Below, piece by piece: positions 44,381 through 53,073 of a stretch of 64,000 nt of DNA; within the stretch, counting starts at the first letter, position 1; each line of letters opens with the position of its first letter. Position numbers and translations under genes: made by a program. Under the pieces are notes generated by a model, which was given only the letters and a program-made list of their open reading frames with translations, had not been told where the DNA came from and searched no databases. The DNA is from Alphaproteobacteria bacterium casp-alpha6. GTDB lineage: Bacteria; Pseudomonadota; Alphaproteobacteria; Rhodobacterales; Rhodobacteraceae. The stretch is from the NCBI GenBank assembly GCA_001510135.1, contig LFER01000016.1, forward strand, positions 1 to 64,000. The letters run 5' to 3'.

Positions 44381-45919
44381 CTATACAGGAAGGTGAATTT
44401 TGAACGCTTCGCGGATAGCACGATCAACGTCTGGGGCAAAACGGGCCGAAGAGGGTTCAGATAAGATGGCTTCTTTTCGTGCAATCGCTTTTTGGATCAG
44501 GTCGGGTTTTCCGAGTTCATCCCATTCCTTTGGTGAGGTTCTGTCGCCAAGTTCGGGATAGATATATTCCGTCTGCATGACCGAGAGCGTTTGATCCGAT
44601 CCAAGGTAATGACCGGGTCCCCCCATACAGGTCTGGCGGATGACATCCACGCTGACCGTGTCCTCGGTCACTTCGATGCCACGCACGCAGCGCATAGCTT
44701 GCCCCAAGAGATCATCACCAAGCACAAGAGATTCGAGGCAAAACCCGAGAAGTGAGGCATGCATGCCCGCCGCCTCGTAGACCATATTCAATCCCGAAAG
44801 CCCTGCCATGACATTCGACGTGGCCTGTTCCCAGCCTGCCTGCATATCAGGCAGCTTGGCATCTGCAATCCCCGCCGCTGCACCACCAGGAAGGTTGTAG
44901 AACCGGTGCATCTGTGCACAGCCTGCTGTCAAAAGCGCCTGTTCGCCACTGCCTCCTGACATCGCTCCCGTGCGCAGATCCGATACAAACGGCCAAGTTC
45001 CAAAAATCGCAGTATGGCCCGGTTTGATGGACTGAACGTAGAAAAGCCCTGCAAGGCATTCTGCAACCGCCTGAACAATTGCACCGGCAATTGGGGCAGG
45101 GGCTGTGGCTCCGGCTTGTCCCGCGCTGAGAAGCAGGATTGGCATGCCTTGGTGGATGCATTCTTCCATCACCAGACAGCTTTCCGTGGCGAATTTCATG
45201 GGCGGTACGACAAAGCAGTTCGAATTTGACACGAACGGACGCGCGCGCCATGCGTCTTCTCCTCCCGCGATCATGTGCAGCATTTTAAATGCATCACGCG
45301 CAAACCCCACTTCGGTAAAGGAAGTGCCCACATGTTTCGTTGTTCCCGAACAGCAGGCATAAATCGTGTTGAGGTCCATCTCACGATTGTCAACAATATC
45401 GCGACAGACCATTGGTCTTTGCAGAAAATGGATATTGTCAAGTTTGTCGGTCAGCCGTGCTGCGTCAAAGAGATCTTTGACCGTACTGTCACGATAATTC
45501 CGCCCCTCGACATCCACGACATGAACAGCGGCACCGGCAGTGCCAAAGTGGACATTGCTTCCGCTGAGGTCGAGATCGTTTTTGCCGTCCCGACTATAAA
45601 GCGTGATTGACCGATTGGCTGAGGCAATCGTGTCTTCAATCAAAGCGCGAGGAAAACGAAGTCGTCCATCGTCGCCAAGAATGGCACCCGCTGCGGTCAT
45701 GTAGTCAATCCCGCTCTGTGGGGCATCTGCAAGGCCTATGGTTTCAAGGGCATCAAGGACGGCTTGGTGTATGCGTTCAATGCCCTCTTGGCTAAGTGGC
45801 TGATATCGCCCGCCGGGAAGGCCGGCGCGCACAGGGCGAAGGTGTTCAGCTAGAGGTGCCGCGCGTGCAGATCTGCGTGCTAAACGGCCACCGGCGCGGC
45901 GAGAAGGTTGTGCTGTCAT
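44381..45919 (-). CDS. MttB-family (trimethylamine methyltransferase-like) protein without pyrrolysine
   Basis: A 512-residue protein of the trimethylamine methyltransferase (MttB) superfamily. Archaeal MttB carries pyrrolysine at an in-frame TAG; this frame reads through with ordinary codons, so it belongs to the non-pyrrolysine group whose known members demethylate quaternary amines such as glycine betaine, proline betaine or carnitine through a corrinoid protein. The family pattern is visible in ISGG-like glycine-rich turns (GGSGEQALLTAGCAQM, GGAAAGIADAKLPDMQAG) and QTCMGGPGHYLGSDQT near the C terminus. The N-terminal 30 residues are Arg/Ala-rich and probably disordered. The ATG has CGGAG upstream. 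No corrinoid protein or second methyltransferase is in the window, so the substrate and acceptor are open. Confidence 0.88.
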   Translation of the reverse strand: MTAQPSRRAGGRLARRSARAAPLAEHLRPVRAGLPGGRYQPLSQEGIERIHQAVLDALETIGLADAPQSGIDYMTAAGAILGDDGRLRFPRALIEDTIASANRSITLYSRDGKNDLDLSGSNVHFGTAGAAVHVVDVEGRNYRDSTVKDLFDAARLTDKLDNIHFLQRPMVCRDIVDNREMDLNTIYACCSGTTKHVGTSFTEVGFARDAFKMLHMIAGGEDAWRARPFVSNSNCFVVPPMKFATESCLVMEECIHQGMPILLLSAGQAGATAPAPIAGAIVQAVAECLAGLFYVQSIKPGHTAIFGTWPFVSDLRTGAMSGGSGEQALLTAGCAQMHRFYNLPGGAAAGIADAKLPDMQAGWEQATSNVMAGLSGLNMVYEAAGMHASLLGFCLESLVLGDDLLGQAMRCVRGIEVTEDTVSVDVIRQTCMGGPGHYLGSDQTLSVMQTEYIYPELGDRTSPKEWDELGKPDLIQKAIARKEAILSEPSSARFAPDVDRAIREAFKIHLPV

Positions 45920-48491: not shown

Positions 48492-49493
48492 CTAAAGGTG
48501 TTTCGCCATTGCAACCGCAGTGTCGAGCATGCGGTTTGAAAATCCCCACTCATTATCATACCAAGCAAGAACGCGGCAGAATGTACCGGACAGAACCTTA
48601 GTCTGATCCGTTGCGAAAATGCTCGAATGGCTGTCATGGTTGAAATCCATTGAGACGAGTTTTTCGTCGGTGACACCCAAAATGCCGCGTAAACGCCCGT
48701 CGCTGGCTTCGTGCATGGCGGCGTTGATTTCTTCGGTGCTGGTGGAGCGAGAGGCTTCAAAGGTGAAATCAACGCAAGACACATTGGGTGTGGGTACGCG
48801 GATCGCTACCCCGTCGAGCTTTCCATCCAATTCAGGCAATACCAGCCCGACGGCACGAGCGGCACCCGTAGACGTGGGGATCATATTAAGTGCTGCAGCG
48901 CGGGCGCGATACAAATCGCTATGGCCGCGATCCAATGTGGGCTGATCACCTGTGTAACTGTGGATTGTCGTCATAAAGCCTTTTTCAATTCCGACAGTGG
49001 CATTCAAAACGCTTGCAACAGGGGCCAGACAATTGGTGGTACAGGAGGCATTGGAGACAATCGTATCGCGGCCTGTCAGAACAGAGTGATTGACACCATA
49101 AACAATAGTCTTGTCAGCACCGCTTGCAGGCGCGGATACCAAGACGCGTTTCGATCCATTCTTGAGGTGAACAGAGGCTGTCTCTTTCGAAGTGAATATA
49201 CCCGTACATTCCAAGACGATATCGACATCATCCCAAGGAAGTTCGTCCGGATTTCGCAGGGCGGAGACCTGCATCCGGCCCCGTCCCATATCTATGGTGT
49301 TCCCATTGACGGTGACCTCACCCGGAAATTTGCCGTGTACACTGTCAAATCGTAAAAGATGCGCGTTTGTTTCTACAGGGGCCAGATCATTAATTGCAAT
49401 AATTTCGACATCTGTGCGCCCATTTTCCAATACACTGCGCAAAATATTGCGTCCAATACGACCAAATCCATTTATGGCAAGTTTTACAGGCAT
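48492..49493 (-). CDS. gap: glyceraldehyde-3-phosphate dehydrogenase (first copy)
   Basis: A 333-residue phosphorylating GAPDH that interconverts glyceraldehyde 3-phosphate and 1,3-bisphosphoglycerate. The NAD motif INGFGRIGRN is N-terminal, the catalytic cysteine is in SNASCTTNC, and the conserved HSYTGDQPTLD and WYDNEWGFSNRM follow. The NAD-region residue after the second strand is Asn-Asp (AINDL), as in NAD-dependent enzymes. A perfect 16-bp palindrome lies 21 bases before the ATG, next to the AGGGTGA ribosome-binding site, so this copy is probably repressed at initiation. It is one of two copies with clearly related but divergent sequences. Confidence 0.97.
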   Translation of the reverse strand: MPVKLAINGFGRIGRNILRSVLENGRTDVEIIAINDLAPVETNAHLLRFDSVHGKFPGEVTVNGNTIDMGRGRMQVSALRNPDELPWDDVDIVLECTGIFTSKETASVHLKNGSKRVLVSAPASGADKTIVYGVNHSVLTGRDTIVSNASCTTNCLAPVASVLNATVGIEKGFMTTIHSYTGDQPTLDRGHSDLYRARAAALNMIPTSTGAARAVGLVLPELDGKLDGVAIRVPTPNVSCVDFTFEASRSTSTEEINAAMHEASDGRLRGILGVTDEKLVSMDFNHDSHSSIFATDQTKVLSGTFCRVLAWYDNEWGFSNRMLDTAVAMAKHL

Positions 49494-49513: not shown

Positions 49514-49529
49514 TTGTTAGCGCTAACAA
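49514..49529. promoter_or_regulatory. LacI-type operator upstream of first gap
   Basis: A perfect 16-bp palindrome, TTGTTAGC-GCTAACAA. Its central CG flanked by TTAG/CTAA half sites resembles operators of LacI-family repressors. It lies 21-36 bases before the gap start codon, where a bound repressor would block transcription or initiation. Related sites stand before the second gap gene. Confidence 0.7.
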
Positions 49530-49580
49530 CATGATCGCAAACCATTTGTCAACCCAATATGTGGCCAAAATATCAGGGTG

Positions 49581-49724
49581 TTATCGCCAGAAAGCGAGCC
49601 ATTCAACAAGATCGTTCATTTTTCGAAGTACGAAAACGATGTCTTTTCCCTCAAAAACAACGAAGTCCAAAATCACAACAGCAATGATCAAAGCAAATAA
49701 AATTGCCCAAAATCTATGTGGCAT
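49581..49724 (-). CDS. 47-residue single-span membrane protein between the two gap genes
   Basis: A short gene on the same strand as both gap genes. It begins MPHRFWAILFAL and ends DLVEWLAFWR. One hydrophobic span (about residues 5-24) is followed by an amphipathic, partly basic C-terminal half. ATG 49724 has AGGAAAG about six bases upstream, and the frame ends at TAA 49581. It lies 111 bases downstream of the second gap gene and 87 bases upstream of the first, so it is probably co-transcribed with the second gap. From memory a small protein ending in a similar EW/EY-LAFWR tail sits at this place in related roseobacters; I could not check that. Function unknown. Confidence 0.7.
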   Translation of the reverse strand: MPHRFWAILFALIIAVVILDFVVFEGKDIVFVLRKMNDLVEWLAFWR

Positions 49725-49835
49725 AAAGAACTTTCCTGTTGTGGCATGCTCGCTTTGACGTAGCTATCGCAGGTCAGGACTTACGAAAAGACTAATTTAA
49801 ACGTTTTACGCCTGAATACAGGTACGCTGGTTCCC

Positions 49836-50837
49836 TCAAAGCAAACGGCCTATGGAAGAGGCAACATCTGCCATCCGGCATGAAAATCCCCATTCATTGT
49901 CATACCATGCCAAGACACGCACCATTCTTTTGCCGACAACTTTGGTTTGATCTGGCGCGAAAATAGACGAATGTGTTGTGTGGTTGAAATCGATGGACAC
50001 TTTGGGTTCTGGATCATAGGCCAGAACTTGACCAAGCCGTCCTTCGGAGGCCTCTCTCACAACTTCATTTACATCGTCTACGGTCACATCTTTGCCGGCC
50101 TCGAAGGTCAAATCCACTGCAGAAACATTTGGTGTTGGTACCCGCATGGCCGTCCCGTCAAGTTTACCACTTAATTCAGGAAGAACTTCGCCAAGCGCTT
50201 TTGCGGCCCCCGTCGAGGTCGGGATCATGGCCATCGCTGCTGCGCGGGCGCGGTAAAGGTCATTGTGGCGACGATCTAGTGTTGGCTGATCGCCAGTGTA
50301 GGAGTGGATCGTCGTCATAATCCCGCGTTCAATGCCGATGGCATCATTCAAAACTTTGGCAAGAGGGGCCAGACAATTCGTCGTGCAAGACCCATTCGAG
50401 ATCATTGTGTCCCCGGGAATAAGGTCTCTGTGGTTGACGCCATATACAATTGTCTTGTCGACGTTTTTGGCCGGGGCAGAGATCAGCACCGATTTGGCCC
50501 CCTGTTGAATGTGCACTGCCGAGGTTTTTCCGTCGTTGAATTTTCCGGTACATTCCAGAACTACGTCACAACCGCTCCAGTCGAGTTCAGTGGGATCATA
50601 GGTTGACATCACCTCGATCGGGCCACGTCCAAGATCAATAGAGTTTCCATTCACGGCCACATTGCCCCCAAAGCGACCGTGAACACTGTCATAGCGTAAA
50701 AGATGGGCATTTGTTTCAATTGGGCCCGTCGCATTCAATTTTACGACATGTACATCATTGCGACCGCTTTCTGCGATATGCGCCAGCGTACAGCGACCAA
50801 TTCTTCCAAATCCGTTAATGCCCACCGTGACAGTCAT
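49836..50837 (-). CDS. gap: glyceraldehyde-3-phosphate dehydrogenase (second copy)
   Basis: A 333-residue GAPDH paralogue of equal length to the other copy. Motifs are INGFGRIGRC, the catalytic SNGSCTTNC, HSYTGDQPTLD and WYDNEWGFSCRM. The residues after the nucleotide-binding strand are VKLNATG instead of AINDL, so the aspartate that selects NAD over NADP is missing and cofactor use may differ (NADP or dual). That is an inference from one position. The ATG has AGGAAAGAG upstream. It lies 217 bases downstream of tkt, with two operator-like sites in the gap. Confidence 0.95.
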   Translation of the reverse strand: MTVTVGINGFGRIGRCTLAHIAESGRNDVHVVKLNATGPIETNAHLLRYDSVHGRFGGNVAVNGNSIDLGRGPIEVMSTYDPTELDWSGCDVVLECTGKFNDGKTSAVHIQQGAKSVLISAPAKNVDKTIVYGVNHRDLIPGDTMISNGSCTTNCLAPLAKVLNDAIGIERGIMTTIHSYTGDQPTLDRRHNDLYRARAAAMAMIPTSTGAAKALGEVLPELSGKLDGTAMRVPTPNVSAVDLTFEAGKDVTVDDVNEVVREASEGRLGQVLAYDPEPKVSIDFNHTTHSSIFAPDQTKVVGKRMVRVLAWYDNEWGFSCRMADVASSIGRLL

Positions 50838-50921: not shown

Positions 50922-50935
50922 TGTTAGCGATAAAA
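50922..50935. promoter_or_regulatory. operator-like site A upstream of second gap
   Basis: TGTTAGCGATAAAA, matching 12 of 14 positions of the palindrome TGTTAGCGCTAACA found before the first gap gene. It lies 85-98 bases before the start codon of the second gap gene. Confidence 0.5.
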
Positions 50936-50951
50936 TTCCACAATGTCAGAA

Positions 50952-50965
50952 TGATACCGCTAACA
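50952..50965. promoter_or_regulatory. operator-like site B upstream of second gap
   Basis: TGATACCGCTAACA, again 12 of 14 matches to TGTTAGCGCTAACA. Its centre is 30 bases from that of site A, close to three helical turns, so two dimers could bind on the same DNA face. Confidence 0.5.
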
Positions 50966-51054: not shown

Positions 51055-53073
51055 TCACAAAAGAGCTTCGGCCCGTGCAACAATCTGATCGACTGTAATC
51101 CCGAAATGTTCAAAAAGCGTTTCGGCCGGAGCGGAGGCCCCAAAGCGATCCATTCCGATAAAATCAGTTTTTGCCTCTCGGCCCTTTTCGCCCAGAAGCC
51201 AGCGATTCCAACCTTGACGCACGCCAGCTTCAACCGCGATCCGCACAGTATTGCCCCCAAGAAGCACGCGTTGGCGGTACTTCGCATCCTGCTTTGCAAA
51301 AAGCTCCATACAGGGCATGGACACGACACGTGTTCCTATCCCTTTATCCTGCAACTGTTTTCGCGCCTCAAGAGCGAGGTGCACTTCTGATCCTGTGGCG
51401 ATCAAGACCACCTGTCTTTTACCTTCCGCTTCCGCAAGCACATAGGCGCCTTTTTCGCTGAGGTTGGCTGATCTGTGATCAGTCCGGACCGTCGGTAAAT
51501 TTTGTCGTGACAATGCCAATACAGAGGGCGTTTCTTTTGTGCTGAGCGCGATTTCCCACGCTTCTGCTGTTTCAACGGTATCTGCCGGGCGGAAGACATA
51601 AGTATTGGGGGTCGCACGACTTATGGCAAGGTGTTCAACCGGTTGATGGGTTGGGCCATCCTCTCCAAGGCCAATGCTGTCATGGGTCATCACAAATACT
51701 GTTGGAATTTTCATCAGAGCCGCCAGACGCATGGCAGGGCGGGCATAATCGGTAAAACACATAAATGTTCCACCATATGGACGTATCCCGCCATGAAGCG
51801 CCATACCATTCAACGCAGCAGCCATCCCATGTTCGCGAATACCCCAATGCATGTAGCGCCCAGAGCGGTTATCGGTATCGAAAACATTCATGTCGGATGA
51901 CTTTGTGTTATTGGAGCCGGACAAATCCGCTGATCCACCAAAGGTCTCTGGCATCACTGGGTTGATCACATTCAGCGCCATTTCAGAAGATTTTCGTGTA
52001 GCAACCTTTGGAGCGTCTTGAGATGTTTTTTGTTTGAAGGCGCGGATTACCGATTTCAGCTTTCGTGCAGGTTCCAAGGAATACACCCGCTCAAATTCTT
52101 TCTGCCGATTTTCCGAAATTCCCGATAACCGCTCTTCCCAAGCGTCGCGTTCTGCGACACAGCGTTTGCCCATCTCTTCCCATGCCGTTTTAATATGTGC
52201 TGGAATTTCAAATGGACCGGACAGCCAACCATAGGTTTTGCGGGCATCAGCGATAAGCGTCGCATCGGTCAAGGCCCCATGACCTTTTGAGGTATCCTGC
52301 GCCGATGAACCCAGTGCAATATGCGTTTTACAGGCAATCATAGTGGGTTTTTTGCTTTTCTTCGCGGTTTCGATCGCTTCGTCGATTTCGATCGGATTGT
52401 GACCATCAATTTCTAAAACCTGCCAGCCAGAGGCCTTAAACCGCATCACCTGATCAGTCCGGTCCGCCAAGTCCACGGTTCCGTCAATGGTGATGTTGTT
52501 GTTGTCCCAAAACACGATCAGTTTGCTAAGTGCATGACGACCCGCAAGGCTGATCGCTTCTTGGCTCACGCCTTCCATTAAACAGCCGTCTCCCGCGATG
52601 ACATAGGTATAATGATCCACGAGTTTCTTGCCAAACCGGGCGCGAAGCACTTCTTCTGCCATAGCAAAACCGACCGCATTGGAAATGCCCTGACCAAGTG
52701 GACCTGTGGTTGTCTCAATCGCCGGAGAAAGAAAATTCTCTGGATGTCCTGCAGTTTTGGCACCCAATTGGCGGAAATTTTTGATTTCATCCATTGGAAA
52801 GTCTTTGTACCCTGTGAGGTGCAGGAGACTGTAGAGCAACATTGAACCATGTCCGGCAGAGAGAATGAACCGATCTCGATCGTGCCATTTTGGATCATCC
52901 GCAACGAATTTGAGATGTTTTTCAAACAGAACGGTGGCCACATCTGCCATGCCCATAGGCATGCCGGAATGTCCTGAGTTTGCAGCCGCCACGGCATCTA
53001 ACGTTAAAACGCGAATTGCAGTAGATTTTTCCCAATGTTCAGGATGGGCTGCACGTAATGTTTGGATATCCAT
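51055..53073 (-). CDS. tkt: transketolase
   Basis: A 672-residue thiamine-diphosphate enzyme that transfers two-carbon units between sugar phosphates in the pentose phosphate (and Calvin) pathways. The N-terminal [15 protein letters not shown] contains the conserved histidine, the ThDP motif starts at [13 protein letters not shown] and runs to DNNNITIDG, and the middle domain has the catalytic [11 protein letters not shown] and HGIREHGM-like [12 protein letters not shown]. Length is normal. It heads a minus-strand cluster with both gap genes, which supply and use the same triose phosphates. Confidence 0.97.

Follow-up and report, generated by a model that had tools for sequence, protein, structure and literature searches.

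A conserved 47-residue protein with a predicted membrane helix, encoded beside the gap genes of Rhodobacteraceae

Glyceraldehyde-3-phosphate dehydrogenase (GAPDH) is a textbook soluble enzyme. In cyanobacteria and plastids it has a small regulator, CP12, which is soluble and disordered and acts as a cysteine-based redox switch. Small proteins with one membrane span usually partner membrane proteins, and CydX and AcrZ are small single-span accessory subunits. CcoM is named among such subunits in the excerpt of PMC10433244 used here. A small GapA-binding protein of Bacillus subtilis, SR1P, is encoded by a dual-function sRNA (excerpt of PMC8152036).

Here we describe a 47-residue protein encoded between two gap genes of the window, by which we mean the whole stretch of 64,000 nucleotides that was analysed. 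With CP12 it shares its small size and, as a candidate role, the regulation of GAPDH, but it has no cysteine and carries a membrane helix. CydX, AcrZ and CcoM resemble it in being tiny, in having one membrane helix and in their accessory role, which we propose for the window protein as well; in contrast to these, 53 members of its family give no Pfam or NCBIfam match above isolated noise. SR1P is similar as a small protein tied to glycolytic GAPDH and provides a model for a tiny GapA modulator (excerpt of PMC8152036). Compared by description and not by sequence, the window protein differs from SR1P in its membrane helix, and binding to GapA would be a candidate property for it.

Conservation and anatomy of the small protein

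The small ORF is separated by 111 bp from the upstream and by 87 bp from the downstream gap gene, all on one strand. The coding features of the cluster are as follows (gapA and gapB are names used here).

48492..49493, minus strand: gapA, the downstream gap gene, type I GAPDH (TIGR01534, E=3e-125)
49581..49724, minus strand: small ORF, 47 aa, MPHRFWAILFALIIAVVILDFVVFEGKDIVFVLRKMNDLVEWLAFWR plus stop (frame read from the sequence; conserved family; dN/dS 0.22)
49731..49737, minus strand: ribosome-binding site AGGAAAG, 6 nt 5' of the ATG (read from the sequence)
49836..50837, minus strand: gapB, the upstream gap gene, type I GAPDH (TIGR01534, E=1.4e-119)
51055..53073, minus strand: putative transketolase gene, upstream in the same cluster (frame called; homologues near the small ORF at other loci)

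The frame at 51055..53073 we take to be transketolase (tkt) from its sequence. A further large ORF of the window (44381-45919, minus strand) has a start that presumably resembles a trimethylamine methyltransferase. The first-pass annotation had reported a same-strand frame of 47 aa between two gap genes, with a good ribosome-binding site and a WLAFWR tail, and all of this is found in the sequence as it was stated.

The length of the frame is not significant by itself, because 42% of randomised spacers of the same size contain an ORF of 47 or more codons on the same strand (start ATG, GTG or TTG). Antisense frames are open in 85, 51 and 30 of 124 copies of the small ORF. Judged from sequence, the small ORF is a genuine protein-coding family, for which conservation and not length is decisive. 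It is most likely translated; a triplet resembling a ribosome-binding site precedes 96 of 128 copies under a lenient criterion applied without control.

At the lenient threshold of E<=1, a search with the single sequence matches 312 of 395 genomes of the family and 26 of 61 relatives. Two of these 26 matches (G043 and G049, E 0.12 and 0.24) fall outside the family and were treated as chance. A family profile was built from 46 aligned rows, the window copy among them. At E<=0.1 it matches 185 of the 196 genomes sampled from the order, and the window copy scores E=7e-19 against this profile, which includes it. Class-wide, the profile search at E<=0.01 gives matches in 5 of 241 genomes, four of them in the window's family (window included); 20 of the 236 non-matching genomes are among those listed. 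One class-wide match (G614) was rejected as weak and partial (residues 2-39, E=0.005, in a 215-aa frame). The family boundary rests on this class-wide search, since the whole order sample falls in the window's family, which we call Rhodobacteraceae from the record titles (Sulfitobacter, Roseovarius, Shimia, Tabrizicola and others). As signature of the protein family we define a length of about 47 aa, a hydrophobic helix, D20, an RK pair and an end similar to [DE]LIEWLAFWR, and the window copy shows all of these. An identical contig stretch (L122, L124) appears in two deposited MAGs, titled Flavobacteriia (unverified) and Roseobacter, respectively, of which the Flavobacteriia-titled one looks mislabelled or contaminated.

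Copies for alignment were extracted by requiring an [AS]FW end, with seven weak matches (L025-L031) and the duplicate L001 excluded. The resulting 128 copies are 47 aa long in 124 cases, 46 aa in three and 51 aa in one, and they end in AFWR (123), SFWR (4) or AFWQ (1). The suspicion that a similar tail would occur at this locus in relatives is confirmed by the AFWR and SFWR ends of most copies. The conservation of F45 and W46 is partly by construction, because the [AS]FW end was required at extraction. Among copies found by the profile without the tail rule, ends in AVWR (G448), AIWR (G431) and QFWR (G432, G182) occur, so the FWR tail is not strictly invariant. In 115 distinct 47-mers, a set that omits the 46- and 51-aa copies and the AFWQ copy of G001, D20 is found in 114, K35 in 102, E41 in 104 and W42 in 103 sequences. 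R47 is found in 115 of 115, again partly by construction, as the AFWQ copy was left out.

The small-ORF family is under purifying selection, which is weaker than that on gap (dN/dS 0.19-0.22 versus 0.06). Pooling 16 close pairs without overlap gives a dN/dS of 0.22; for an identical set of 14 pairs it amounts to 0.187 for the small ORF versus 0.058 for the neighbouring gap gene. A lack of any conserved frame in relatives and a high nonsynonymous rate had been named as possible refutations. We find the frame conserved in 185 of 196 order genomes and a pooled dN/dS of only 0.19-0.22. Together with the membrane helix, the profile matches and the dN/dS of 0.22 bear out the earlier proposal that the gap locus encodes a small membrane protein which is conserved and had been overlooked.

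The window protein matches no Pfam or NCBIfam family at E<=1. When 53 members were compared with both libraries, each listed family matched one member alone (best E 0.025), which is noise, and a PHROGs scan likewise returned noise alone. In the PDB there are no profile matches at E<=10 and no Foldseek matches at E<=10, the latter being a weak test for a very short model. A literature search by title and abstract opening found no report of the 47-aa protein; a table of Rhodobacterales signature proteins is given in PMC2241609.

The protein can be divided into three parts.

49653..49712, minus strand: membrane helix, residues 5-24, hydrophobic, with the Asp20 codon at 49665-49667 (hydropathy; D20 in 114 of 115; AlphaFold helix 3-24)
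49590..49640, minus strand: amphipathic second helix, residues 29-45 (AlphaFold helix 29-45; hydrophobic moment)
49584..49592, minus strand: C-terminal FWR, the most conserved stretch (ends of 128 copies, partly via locus selection)

AlphaFold, run on 53 sequences, predicts helices at residues 3-24 and 29-45 with a mean pLDDT of 79.9 and a pTM of 0.47. The single membrane span of the first-pass annotation agrees with the hydropathy helix at residues 5-24 and with the predicted helix 3-24. Helix 1 is hydrophobic apart from the conserved Asp20, and its mean hydrophobic moment is 0.08-0.09, compared to 0.31 for helix 2. Residues 1-4 carry on average 0.43 K/R versus 2.93 in residues 25-47, pointing under the positive-inside rule to a C-terminus in the cytosol, and the amphipathic helix 2 is probably cytosolic. 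The proposed topology is uncertain, because the net charge is nearly equal on both sides (N +0.35, C +0.19).

With moderate confidence we lean towards a small accessory adaptor or modulator located in the inner membrane, made with GAPDH, whose C-terminal helix docks a partner. The small ORF would be co-transcribed from gapB, the N-terminus of the protein would face the periplasm and its C-terminal helix would lie along the cytosolic face. The conserved face of helix 2 and the FWR tail, with Asp20, may then dock one partner protein, to which the small protein, produced alongside GAPDH, would be an accessory subunit that adapts or modulates. Its partner would most likely be another membrane protein and less likely GAPDH. 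The docking is deduced from conservation alone, since there are no matches to known families.

Linkage to the gap genes and decay within one genus

The first-pass annotation had put forward a membrane anchor or regulator of GAPDH. According to this idea the C-terminal helix would bind GapA/GapB tetramers and hold or modulate them at the membrane, for which the binding of GapA by SR1P in Bacillus is a precedent (excerpt of PMC8152036). The gene neighbourhood is the main evidence in its favour. At 80 named loci, found by the pattern L[IV]EWLAFW and over-representing one part of the family, a same-strand gap gene lies within 400 bp upstream of the small ORF in 69 cases and further off in 5. The rest are cut by a contig end (3) or have no gap gene upstream (3, two of these with gap downstream). 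On the downstream side, for which four query genes were used, gap is next in 23 loci, a convergent coaD within 600 bp in 38 and coaD further away in 9, and none of the four is found in 10.

The order sample was drawn independently of the tail motif. Adjacency was counted on the 123 genomes (window included) that are among the matches listed for both the small ORF and gap. Among these listed matches, gapB lies within 400 bp upstream in 98 of 123 genomes. All 25 exceptions were inspected: gapA is within 250 bp downstream in 20 and at 744-803 bp in three, and in the other two gapB lies 0.7 and 1.7 kb upstream. Absence of gapB was defined by a best E above 1e-150, a cut chosen by eye. The adjacency total adds 14 of the 26 carriers without gapB, namely those with coordinates among the matches listed; gapA is within 600 bp in 12 of these and neither gap gene is in the stretch in two. 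This gives a gap gene within 600 bp of the small ORF in 130 of the 137 genomes placed, among the matches listed.

The ancestral gene order, as reconstructed by us, is probably tkt-gapB-ORF-gapA-coaD (convergent), and with this order the small ORF would still have one gap gene as its neighbour after a break on either side. In 32 of the 39 genomes with gapB absent or distant, gapA is adjacent; of 59 sampled genomes with gapB in place, 37 have a gap gene downstream (p=0.045, relatedness ignored). The latter figure counts the presence of gap within 1 kb and not its strand, since at 28 of the 59 loci the strand of the small ORF was not recovered. The excess is small and gives weak support to selection on the linkage between small ORF and gap beyond inherited order. 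A second association, in favour of the GAPDH anchor, is that gapB is absent in 6 of 11 non-carriers versus 26 of 185 carriers (p=0.003, relatedness ignored). Because every one of the 196 order genomes has some GAPDH, a need for GAPDH as such cannot be read from which genomes carry the small ORF.

Against the anchor stand the same 26 of 185 carriers that keep the small ORF without gapB, and loci that retain it in a stretch free of gap genes. These are L016, L023 and L024 (flanks up to 1.5 kb) and L079 (10 kb), where the small ORF lies near coaD, tkt or other genes, as well as the stretches around the small ORF in G187 and G171. In a Pelagimonas MAG (L079, 7001-13000) the small ORF does not follow gap but is still 5' of convergent coaD; the genes ahead of it presumably encode proteins similar to arginase and ornithine cyclodeaminase. 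At three further loci (L109, L111, L117), about 1.65 kb separates gap from the small ORF, and in L109 and L111 we take the frame within this interval to resemble cytochrome b561. It also counts against the anchor that one-span small proteins commonly partner membrane proteins, and that both gap genes remain where the small ORF has decayed in the window's genus. The proposal of a GAPDH anchor or regulator is thus weakly supported and has lost ground, as the small protein survives without gapB, decays beside both gap genes and shows a linkage barely above inherited order. We now regard it as doubtful.

The spacer between gapB and gapA was recovered for all six other draft genomes of this genus. 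The small-ORF frame is broken by indels or stops in five of them (G002, G003, G004, G005, G006), and in G001 it is open yet eroded (51 aa, tail RLAFWQ). As these broken frames come from drafts, the single-base deletion in G005 may be an assembly error, which is less so for the cases with several lesions. None of the six drafts lacks either gap gene, but gapA of G003 spans contig ends, a contig end truncates gapB of G005, and gapB of G006 is both truncated and frameshifted. The frameshift in gapB of G006 (L168 / L179) is located near residues 146-150 and could be a draft assembly error. A small gapB tree, several nodes of which are weakly supported, groups the window with G001 and places G002, G003 and G006 in another group. 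This separation of the decayed members suggests more than one decay event. In the 11 non-matching order genomes, the stretches around the gap genes hold no copy of the small ORF. The small protein is dispensable and has been lost in some lineages.

Given five broken frames and one eroded frame in congeners, the window copy of an otherwise real family might itself be in early decay, and its lack of the usual MTN start would fit. However, it is full length, retains D20, RK, E41, W42 and AFWR, has a good ribosome-binding site and scores E=7e-19 against the profile (which includes it), and we consider such decay improbable.

Candidate control signals around the small ORF

Two candidate control elements are located between the small ORF and gapA.

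49515..49528, strand not assigned: perfect palindrome TGTTAGCGCTAACA, a CceR/LacI-type operator candidate (sequence; genus conservation; fits the RSP_1663 motif)
49547..49552, minus strand: TTGACA, similar to a -35 hexamer and possibly part of a gapA promoter 3' of the small ORF (in all 7 aligned genus spacers)

We take CceR to be identical to RSP_1663. For this LacI-family regulator of Rhodobacter sphaeroides the predicted motif is [A/G/T]GTT N6-8 AAC[A/C/T] (excerpt of PMC4344238). The palindrome at gapA resembles this motif, as do imperfect ones at gapB, and the likeness concerns a candidate site of the regulator, not the small protein. The imperfect CceR-like palindromes are found upstream of gapB at 50922-50935 and 50952-50965, 30 bp apart. 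At the named loci, the operator motif occurs in 16 of 23 ORF-gapA spacers (2.2 kb) and in 41 of 68 regions of 300 bp 5' of the upstream gap gene (20.3 kb). It is scarcer in gap-ORF spacers (3 of 69, 6.7 kb) and in other 100-bp stretches on the downstream side (2 of 57, 5.7 kb). The pattern is loose, with about 0.4 occurrences per kb expected by our own arithmetic at equal base use. Palindromes with up to three mismatches are not enriched in the window (17 sites versus 11.4 expected). All seven genus spacers contain TTGACA; four of them carry the perfect palindrome and the other three a version with one mismatch.

No good -10 box was seen near TTGACA at 49547..49552. A consensus promoter scan missed this hexamer, and a terminator scan found no terminator in the gapB-ORF spacer; the yield of neither scan was above that of shuffled sequences, so that both are uninformative either way. 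From the arrangement of these motifs, gapA probably has its own control region 3' of the small ORF and the small ORF most likely rides on the gapB transcript, since the operator is frequent in ORF-gapA spacers and scarce in gap-ORF spacers.

A short ORF 5' of gapA whose most conserved residues lie at the extreme C-terminus could also be a leader or arrest peptide that controls translation or transcription of the downstream gene. This is very unlikely in view of gapA's own operator and of the many loci where no same-strand downstream target was found. The CceR-like operator sits between ORF and gapA in 16 of 23 spacers plus the window, and the genus keeps it where the small ORF is broken. In 38 of 80 named loci a convergent coaD, no more than 600 bp away, is the nearest of the four query genes on the downstream side, and a constant same-strand target was not found, gap being next in 23 of 80 among the genes tested. 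Asp20 and the membrane helix are conserved as well. A hydrophobic peptide of the type I toxin kind would fit in size and helix, but is extremely unlikely: the small protein is carried by 185 of 196 order genomes and, where it could be placed, sits at an inherited locus, and a tblastn search of 72,556 plasmid records with one member found nothing at E<=1. The remaining reading, a chance ORF without function such as 42% of these spacers hold at equal length, is refuted for the family by conservation, near-constant length and dN/dS, and we give it practically no weight.

A clade-specific protein of Rhodobacteraceae

Rhodobacteraceae are common in the sea, and the accessory membrane protein that we favour is a clade-specific protein in most of their sampled genomes, missing from the family libraries searched. 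In a bolder version, a family-wide micro-subunit would hold GAPDH, or a complex of lower glycolysis, at the inner membrane and couple the oxidation of glyceraldehyde-3-phosphate to a membrane process, having been discarded more than once in the window's genus; to this version we attach rather little credence. If the small protein touches GAPDH, an enzyme known from textbooks as soluble would gain a link to the membrane. Otherwise the small protein probably belongs to a membrane complex, as a subunit that has escaped recognition. The losses within one genus offer a natural contrast.
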